From Deltaproteobacteria bacterium (lineage in GTDB: Bacteria > Myxococcota > UBA727 > VGSZ01): a DNA stretch of 54,981 nucleotides. Position numbers and translations under genes: made by a program. Below the pieces are notes generated by a model, which made no database searches, had not been told where the DNA came from, and saw only the letters and a list, made by a program, of their open reading frames with translations. Positions 36,310 to 39,530 of this stretch are shown piece by piece. Location of the stretch: the NCBI GenBank assembly GCA_016874845.1, contig VGSZ01000007.1, forward strand, positions 1 through 54,981. The letters are read 5' to 3'. Within the stretch, counting starts at the first letter, position 1. Each line of letters opens with the position of its first letter.

Positions 36310-36654
36310 GTCGGAACGTGTGGTCTGCCCCCAGAACACAGCGGGTCGCGTAGCGCAGCCGGGGCGGCCTGTCAGCCCCAGATGTCGCGCTGCGTTATCG
36401 CCGGTGTGTCGTCGCGGCGCGGCACTCGGTGGCCCGCGCCGCCGGGTCGGGAACGGGGACAGAAGGCAGGTTCACGCGCGGACTCCGATGGACGAGCCGA
36501 ACACGACACCCCGCGACACGGCGAAGCGTGCCACGAGACGCCGACACAGCGGTCGCGCTCGGTCCGGCAACGGACTAGGACCGAGGGATGCATGTGCCGG
36601 TGGGGTTGGCGGCCGACACCACCCACGCCGGTCACTGCTTCGCCGGGGACTGAC

Positions 36655-37101
36655 GGATCGGTTGCGCTCGTCTGGGTCGCAAACGGCCTGTGGTGCAAGG
36701 TGCTCGGCGGCGTCCCCGCCACCCCGCCATCGTCGCCCGCGTCGTCGGCGACGCCCTTTGCGCGCGCGAGCGCGGCGCGCTTGCGCCCTGTCCCACGGCG
36801 ACGGACGTCGCGCCGCTGCTCACGATCGTGATCGGTCGCGCCGAGCTCGTCATGGCCGCGAGTGCTGAGCGGTCGTCGCCAATACCTCTGCACCGCGACG
36901 CCGATCGCGGTCGTCATGGCGATGAACGTCATCGAGCAGGCGCTCGCCGCCGACCTGCTGCTCTGGGGCCGCTTCAACCCGTTGTGGGCCACGCTGTTCT
37001 GCGTCGTCGTCGGTGTCCGCGCCCTCGGCGACCGCGACGGCGAAGGCGCACCCGACGCCCCGCCCCGCACGGAGACACCGGTAGCCTGCACGACCGCCTG
37101 A
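36655..37101 (+). pseudogene. DoxX-like membrane protein, frame-disrupted
   Basis: LVWVANGLWCKVLGGVP / RHPAIVARVVGDA..LLTIVIGRAELVMAA / VLSGRRQYLCTATPIAVVMAMNVIEQALAADLLLWGRFNPLWATLF lie in successive different frames. Confidence 0.6.
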
Positions 37102-37847
37102 AGAACCACCCCTTCGCCGTCGACGCCCACTTCGACTTCTCGCTCGTGCTCACCTACGCGCTGCCGTGAACGGCGGTGGCTTTGCTCGTGCCAGAAGCCC
37201 TCCACCTGCGACGCCGTGGCGACCGACGACGCCATCGGCGTCCCCGTCGGCTTCATGACCGTCGCGATGATGCAGACCCGTGGCCTGCGCCCCGCCCGCC
37301 TGCCGCGCGTCGTCAGCCGCGACTTCTTCCTCGTCGGCACCCGCGTCTTCGTCCGCTTCAGCACGCGCGACGGTCGCACGCTGCGCGGCCTTTACAGCCT
37401 GCGCTCGCAGACCGACTCGCGCGCGATGCAACACCTCGGTGAAATCTTCACCCGCTACCGCTACGAACACCTCGACGTCGCCGTCGAACAGACACCCGAC
37501 CGCATCGCGGTGCGCGCCGGCGCGTTCGTCGCCGACTTCGACACCGCCGCCGCCGGCGACGCAGCGCCGCCGTTGCCTGCGGGTTCACCGTTTTCGACCT
37601 GGAAGGACGCACGTCGGTTCGCCGGGACGATGCCGCACACGTGCTCGATGCTCGACCACGGCTGCGTGCTCGTCGTCGAAGGCGTGCACCAGAACTGGAA
37701 GCCACGCCCGGTGCGCGTGCTCGCGGCCCACGTCCCCTCTTCGCCGAACGCACGCTGCAAGACCCCGTGCTCGCCAGTGCGGTTGTCATCGAGGACGTGC
37801 CCTACCACTGGAACGCCGGGCGCCGCGAAGCAGACCCCGACCAATGA
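37101..37847 (+). pseudogene. DUF2071-family protein, disrupted by an in-frame TGA and two frame shifts
   Basis: LKNHPFAVDAHFDFSLVLTYALP* / LLVPEALHL / DAIGVPVGFMTVAMMQTRGLRPARLPRVVSRDFFLVGTRVFVRF... / LFAERTLQDPVLASAVVIEDVPYHWNAGRREADPDQ*. Confidence 0.6.
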
Positions 37848-38714
37848 CGAAGACACCCGCTGGCCGCGCGCCGCTGCATGGCGTCACCGGCATCGTGCGC
37901 TTCAACGCGCCCGTCTCCGCGCTGGCGATCTTCGTCGTCGTCTTTGGCGTCGTCGTCTTAGGCGTCGCGCCGCGCGGGGCGCCTTGGGGGATCCGGAGGG
38001 CTCGTCGCGTCGTCCCTGGCGTTCGCGCTGACGGCGGGGTCGCTCGTCGCGTCGTACCTGACCGATGACCGCTCGGAGCTCTACGCGTGGCGCTGGTTCG
38101 ACCGCTTCGTTCCACTGCCGTCGTCGATGACGACGGCCACGATGACGGCCACGACGACGGCCACGACGACGGCCACGGCGACGGCCACGGCGGCAGTCAC
38201 GACCACACCGACGATCGTGCACGCGCACACCGGTCTGGACGAGAGCTTCGCCGTCCTGCGCGCGCGCTACCCGCACGCCCGCGTCGTCGTCATCGACGCC
38301 AACGACACGCGCGTCCAGACCGAGCCGTCGATTGAGCGCGCGCGCGCGATCGTGCCGCTGCACGAAGACACCGTCGCCGTGGGGCGTGGCGCCCTGCCGG
38401 TGAAGGACGTCGACGTCATCGTGCTGCCGATGGCCGCCCACGAGGTCCGCGACGACGATGTCCGCGCGCGCTGGTTCGGGACCCTCGCGCGCAGCCTGCG
38501 TGCAGACGGCCGAAGCGTCGTCCTCGAGCACCAGCGCGACGTATGCAACGCGCTCGCGTTTTATGTCGGCGTGCTGCACTTCCTGTCGCGCAGGACGTGG
38601 CACGACGCCTTCGCGCGCGCGGGGCTCGTGCTTGTCGAAGAGTCGACGGTGCCGCCGCTGCTGGCGCTGTTCGTGCTGACCCGCGCTGACGACGCCGACG
38701 GAGACGCCCGATGA
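37844..38714 (+). pseudogene. Class I SAM-dependent methyltransferase with N-terminal TM segments, frame-disrupted near 37986-37990
   Basis: APVSALAIFVVVFGVVVLGVAPRGAPWG / GLVASSLAFALTAGSLVASYLTDDRSELYAWRWFDRFVPLPSS...IVHAHTGLDESFAVLRARYPHARVVVIDAND...MAAHEVRDDDVRARWFGTLARSLRADGRSVVLEHQRD. Confidence 0.6.
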
Positions 38715-38934
38715 ACCCGCTCGATCCGCTGCTGCACCTGAGTGCCGTCGGCGTCGTCTTCGTCGTCCTCGCCTTCGTCTACGCCGTCTTTCCCCGCTAC
38801 TTCGACTGGCGGCGCGAGCTGGCGTCGTTGTCGGTCATCAACCGGCAGTTGATGGAGGTGCACACGTTTTCATCGCGTTGGTCGTGCTGTGGATGGGCGT
38901 CTTGTGCCTCGTCGACGCCGAGGCGCTGGCGTGA
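38711..38934 (+). pseudogene. Short integral membrane protein, frame-disrupted at a T-run and apparently truncated
   Basis: MNPLDPLLHLSAVGVVFVVLAFVYAVFPRYFDWRRELASLSVINRQLMEVHTF / IALVVLWMGVLCLVDAEALA*. Confidence 0.5.
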
Positions 38935-39530
38935 ACGCCGCTGGGACGGCACGTCGCCCATCGGGACCGGCGCGCGGCGCGGCGCTGCAGGAGAAGGCGC
39001 ACGCGATCCCCGTCGGCGACAGCCCGGTGCTCGGCAACAAGCAGGTGCGGGTCAACCTCGTCGTGTTCTCCGATCTGCAGTGCCCGTTCTGCGCGCGCTC
39101 GCACGCGCTCTTGAAGGAGGTCGTCGAAGACCCCGCGCTGAAGAAGCGGGTCAACGTCGTCTACAAGTACTTTCCGCTGTCGTTCCACGAGGACGCGAAG
39201 CCGGCGGCGCTGTTCGCGATGGCGGTGCGCGAGCTCGGCGGCGACGACGCGTTCTGGAGCTTCGTCGATCGCGTGTACCAGCAGCAGCGCGACATGGAGA
39301 GCGCTGCGCTGAAGGACGTCGCGAACGCCATCGGCGTCGACGGCGAACGGGCTGCGGCCCTCGCCTACGCGAAGGAGTCGACGTACACGGCCGTCCTCGA
39401 CGCCGACCAGAAGCTCGCCAGCAGCATCGGTGTCCGCGGCACGCCGACCTTCTTCGTGGGCGGATGGCAGCTGGGCGACCGCAGCGTCGACAGCGTCAAG
39501 GCCCTACTGAAGAAAAAGAACCTGCCCTGA
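38931..39530 (+). CDS. DsbA-family thioredoxin-fold protein without a recognisable signal peptide
   Basis: VNLVVFSDLQCPFCARSHALLKEVVEDP...VYKYFPLSFHEDAKPAALFAMA...IGVRGTPTFFVGGWQLGD. Confidence 0.88.
   Translation: MNAAGTARRPSGPARGAALQEKAHAIPVGDSPVLGNKQVRVNLVVFSDLQCPFCARSHALLKEVVEDPALKKRVNVVYKYFPLSFHEDAKPAALFAMAVRELGGDDAFWSFVDRVYQQQRDMESAALKDVANAIGVDGERAAALAYAKESTYTAVLDADQKLASSIGVRGTPTFFVGGWQLGDRSVDSVKALLKKKNLP

Follow-up and report, generated by a model that had tools for sequence, protein, structure and literature searches.

In bacteria, pseudogene clusters have been described in which frameshifts, nonsense codons, and deletions are found in all genes, intact orthologues exist, and a residual codon bias is retained. 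The operon analyzed here encodes a DoxX_3 protein, a DUF2071 protein, a SAM methyltransferase, and a small membrane protein, in this order. DUF2071 has been related to an acetoacetate-decarboxylase-like fold without the Schiff-base lysine (PMC4520260). The closest intact operon, with the same gene order and the same overlaps, is located on the MAG contig CAJBHN010000187 ("uncultured Myxococcales bacterium"). Its identity to the copy studied here is 52–70% for the DUF2071 pieces and about 62–63% for the main methyltransferase piece and the membrane-protein pieces. In contrast to that operon, the present copy has lesions that break each of its four genes, and its end is cut short.

The window, i.e., the whole analyzed stretch of 54,981 nt, is the entire contig 7 of a Myxococcota genome bin of 5.6 Mb in 532 contigs. 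The GC content is 72%, and the GC content at third codon positions (GC3) is about 93%, so that reading frames are easily visible. The frames of the window were checked by three-frame translation and by tblastn with the proteins of intact relatives. As an independent frame-break caller, a codon-usage HMM was trained on the genome itself, and its background rate at a lenient setting was determined with further contigs of this genome (334 kb in total). Both contig ends (54789–54981 and 1–64) consist of tandem repeats of 6 to 18 bp, which is probably the point where the assembly broke. Elsewhere in this genome (L027:461-988; G000:C13:20461-20988), HMM calls of frame breaks and stops are also densely clustered, which may indicate another decayed gene or a non-coding stretch.

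With the open piece of DUF2071 as query, 58 related genomes were searched, and an uninterrupted frame was found in one genus mate (G001) and in one distant Myxococcota genome (G049). A contig scan with the window fragment as query found nothing, whereas the same type of scan with an alignment as query did yield matches, but no further genome of the same species was found. In G001, the operon consists of four overlapping, uninterrupted frames for a DoxX_3 protein of 149 aa, a DUF2071 protein of 274 aa, a methyltransferase that carries a membrane segment at its N-terminus, and a membrane protein of 141 aa. In G049, the last three genes are intact. When the G001 and G049 proteins were aligned to the window with tblastn, collinear pieces were obtained, and the frame changed between them. 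Intact orthologues, each a single uninterrupted frame, were found in G001, in G049, and in other phyla. The comparison of orthologous loci that had been proposed together with the original prediction thus revealed that the genus mate and distant bacteria have kept the frames intact. The predicted gene identities were also borne out by Pfam matches of the intact copies. For DUF2071 (PF09844, gathering score 27), the G001 and G049 proteins reached 41.4 and 57.1 bits, while the window fragment remained below the threshold with 21.4 bits. For DoxX_3 (PF13781, gathering score 25), the G001 copy reached 34.4 bits, and the only window ORF that was scanned (36690–37166) gave no match. The features of the locus are summarized in Table 1.

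Table 1. Features of the broken operon and of the adjoining gene (positions refer to the window)
Feature	Position	Strand	Evidence
DoxX_3-like membrane protein pseudogene	36631..37101	+	tblastn and alignment to the 149-aa DoxX_3 protein of G001
DUF2071 pseudogene	37092..37846	+	three collinear tblastn pieces to the intact 274-aa G001 protein; Pfam DUF2071
Membrane-anchored SAM methyltransferase-like pseudogene	37844..38714	+	alignment to G001, G049, and other relatives
12-bp tandem repeat, in-frame insertion of about 24 codons	38129..38203	+	repeat detection and alignment
Small membrane protein pseudogene	38711..38955	+	tblastn pieces to residues 6–84 of the 141-aa G001 protein
Joint between the membrane-protein gene and the DsbA-like gene (inferred deletion, or misassembly)	38955..38975	.	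homology switch
DsbA-like thioredoxin-fold gene, N-terminal lipoprotein signal absent	38931..39530	+	Pfam Thioredoxin_4/DSBA

Translation and tblastn confirmed that the lesions of the original prediction are truly present in the assembly at the predicted coordinates. In the DoxX_3 pseudogene, the frame changes near 36715, at a C4 run (36714–36717), and near 36866 (predicted near 36861), and the alignment has a GTC where the relative has its start codon. The DUF2071 pseudogene contains an in-frame TGA (37167–37169) and frame changes near 37208 (predicted as an extra base near 37209) and near 37735, at a C4 run (37734–37737). The methyltransferase and membrane-protein pseudogenes begin at ATGA junctions, at 37844 and 38711, respectively, both of which had been predicted. 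Their frames change near 37987, at a G5 run (37986–37990), and near 38869, at a T4 run (38867–38870). The membrane-protein pseudogene also carries a TGA at 38932–38934 and lacks its final 57 or so codons. This TGA had been read as the natural end of the gene, but the relatives continue past it (LVSTPLGRHV versus LA*TPLGRHV in the window). In addition, the methyltransferase pseudogene contains the 12-bp repeat directly upstream of the SAM-binding motif region, which is absent from all aligned relatives. Repeats that resemble this GACGACGGCCAC-type repeat occur at dozens of other sites in the same genome.

The collinearity of the pieces with intact proteins could also be due to programmed recoding, in which ribosomal frameshifting and TGA readthrough join the frames. 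However, the interruptions are not conserved: the frames of the relatives encode the same proteins without interruption, and therefore, no recoding is needed there. At the position of the first TGA, the relatives have mostly Thr, Glu, or Ala, and at the second they have Ser. Furthermore, the last gene has lost about 40% of its length, which is beyond what recoding could restore. Recoding was thus rejected as extremely improbable. The use of TGA as a sense codon was likewise rejected, as neither Trp nor Cys occurs at these positions in the relatives.

The homology to the membrane protein stops at residue 84 of 141 (38955), and within about 20 bp the homology to the linker of a DsbA-like protein begins. 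A genome-wide search for the missing end of the membrane-protein gene retrieved only the two pieces from the window and one insignificant match. The DsbA-like frame is otherwise open, but the HMM assigned no start codon to it, and the nearest candidate is a GTG at 38931, which overlaps the second TGA. The N-termini of DsbA-like proteins from four relatives (L036, L038, L040, and L044; L037, L039, L041, L042, and L043 were excluded from this comparison) comprise a lipoprotein-type signal followed by a charged, coiled-coil-like stretch, and neither is present in the window. The DsbA-like gene is well conserved across the order, and within the window genome, no other copy with a comparable similarity was noticed. 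A DsbA-groEL synteny was not seen in the 3-kb loci of the relatives. A single deletion would explain the truncation of both genes. The alternative is a chimeric joint, and it is true that misassembly could cut a gene that is conserved in the order.

In total, the operon carries six frameshifts, two TGAs, and one truncation, and each of the four genes was broken independently. The HMM called frame breaks at 37076, 37739, 38000, and 38871, i.e., four in 2.3 kb. With a background of 1.65 calls per 10 kb, only about 0.4 calls would be expected in the operon. Several of the other calls in the window coincide, in our reading, with tandem repeats or gene overlaps. The predicted "hot spot" was thus corroborated with regard to lesion density, but relaxed selection on one operon probably describes it better than a mutational hot spot.

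Four of the six frameshifts are located at runs of 4–5 nt. This would be in agreement with a local assembly or sequencing error, i.e., an operon that is intact in the organism, a poor contig, and a chimeric joint at about 38955. However, the two nonsense codons, the radical changes at conserved sites (see below), and the repeat insertion of 24 codons are not homopolymer errors. Moreover, the window has 25 homopolymers of 6–8 nt, and for 23 of them the HMM called no frame break at a distance of up to 80 bp, although such runs should be the first to fail. The neighboring DsbA frame is open, as are many long ORFs with lengths of up to about 1100 aa, and the fragmentation into 532 contigs suggests short reads, which are rarely the source of such indels. 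The short runs could also point to a phase-variable contingency operon that is switched by homopolymer slippage. Usual phase variation needs runs longer than 4–5 nt, and longer runs without breaks exist elsewhere in the window. In addition, six breaks together with stop codons and a deletion are not jointly reversible, which makes a switch of this kind very improbable.

Next, the constraint on the residual frames was analyzed. Their GC3 was slightly lowered, at 0.89 compared with 0.92 in 191 intact genes, which corresponds to the 17th percentile. Several radical changes at near-invariant residues are private to the window, e.g., FAGPMPYTF to FAGTMPHTC in DUF2071 and EHLRD to EHQRD in the methyltransferase. 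Near-invariant DUF2071 sites were changed in 23 cases in the window versus 15 in G001, and 11 versus 3 of the changes were private to one genome, which is a modest excess. The relative rates did not differ for three of the genes. For DUF2071, the window and G001 each shared 112 identities with G049, the numbers for the methyltransferase were 80 versus 75 and were taken as equal, and for the membrane protein (31 versus 30) the window also matched the intact copy. Only the DoxX rate was slightly raised in the window, with 29 identities to a Streptomyces protein versus 38 for the intact copy. Equal rates fit very recent decay, but they also fit working genes with sequence errors, and to this extent they favor the error explanation. 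Nevertheless, a locally poor consensus, one of the two options of the original prediction, is unlikely in view of the nonsense codons, the fusion joint, and the radical changes at near-invariant residues. The other option, recent decay of the operon, is favored by the intact relatives, the mixture of lesion types (frameshifts inside and outside short runs, two TGAs, and the fusion joint), and the longer homopolymers, which are rarely broken.

Taken together, the locus is probably a recently decayed accessory operon, i.e., a pseudogene cluster that originated from the loss of a dispensable unit. The decay would be recent because the residual GC3 is high and the rates of the DUF2071, methyltransferase, and membrane-protein genes match those of the intact copy. 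The broken frames, the truncated junction, and the intact copies of the relatives were observed directly. We infer that the lesions are mutations of the genome and not assembly errors, that the deletion took place inside the cell, and in which order these events occurred. The operon would have become dispensable in the lineage of the window genome, and would then have accumulated frameshifts of the slippage type in short runs, together with two nonsense codons and the expansion of the tandem repeat. A deletion would have removed the end of the membrane-protein gene together with the secretion signal of the adjoining DsbA-like gene.

The distribution of the operon is patchy. Of 195 phylum genomes, 3 contain DUF2071 of the window type, and another genus mate lacks it. 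Similar cassettes were encountered on a Streptomyces plasmid and in MAGs whose titles name Verrucomicrobiales, Deinococcales, Acidobacteria, or Chloroflexi. The Streptomyces cassette was traced through one of the matches from a search of plasmid DNA, all of which were short. This distribution probably reflects a dispensable, transferred unit. The order of the DUF2071, methyltransferase, membrane-protein, and DoxX_3-like genes varies between loci from several phyla (L048:2564-6027, L051, L052, L053, L054, L055, and L056). DUF2071 and the methyltransferase are adjacent on the Streptomyces plasmid NZ_CP098484 and in the Acidobacteria, Chloroflexi, and Verrucomicrobiales cassettes, most of which also have the membrane protein and a DoxX-like gene. 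Unlike the window, the cassettes with a BtaA-like gene have another gene order and this additional DUF3419/BtaA-like gene, which was found in the Streptomyces and Acidobacteria loci and, with weaker matches, in the Chloroflexi and Verrucomicrobiales loci. At E 0.001, neither the window genome nor its family yielded a BtaA-like gene. BtaA, after which these genes are named, makes betaine lipids. It is conceivable, though doubtful, that the intact cassette encodes an undescribed pathway scattered by horizontal transfer, whose product may be a betaine-lipid-related aminolipid, and that the window records how this pathway was recently lost from a Myxococcota lineage free of BtaA-like genes. The aminolipid role is only a guess, and the cassette is a lead as to what this domain of unknown function may do.

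In summary, a cluster of frame lesions in a MAG can reflect genuine operon decay, and the present case may be regarded as settled. Intact relatives, mixed lesion types, the behavior of longer homopolymers, and residue-level constraint are the tests that separate decay from error. The operon loss would be of an ordinary kind. Like the bacterial pseudogene clusters mentioned at the outset, the window combines several kinds of lesions across all genes with intact orthologues and residual codon bias, and nothing substantive differs, with the addition that its deletion would also have taken the secretion signal of the neighboring DsbA-like gene.
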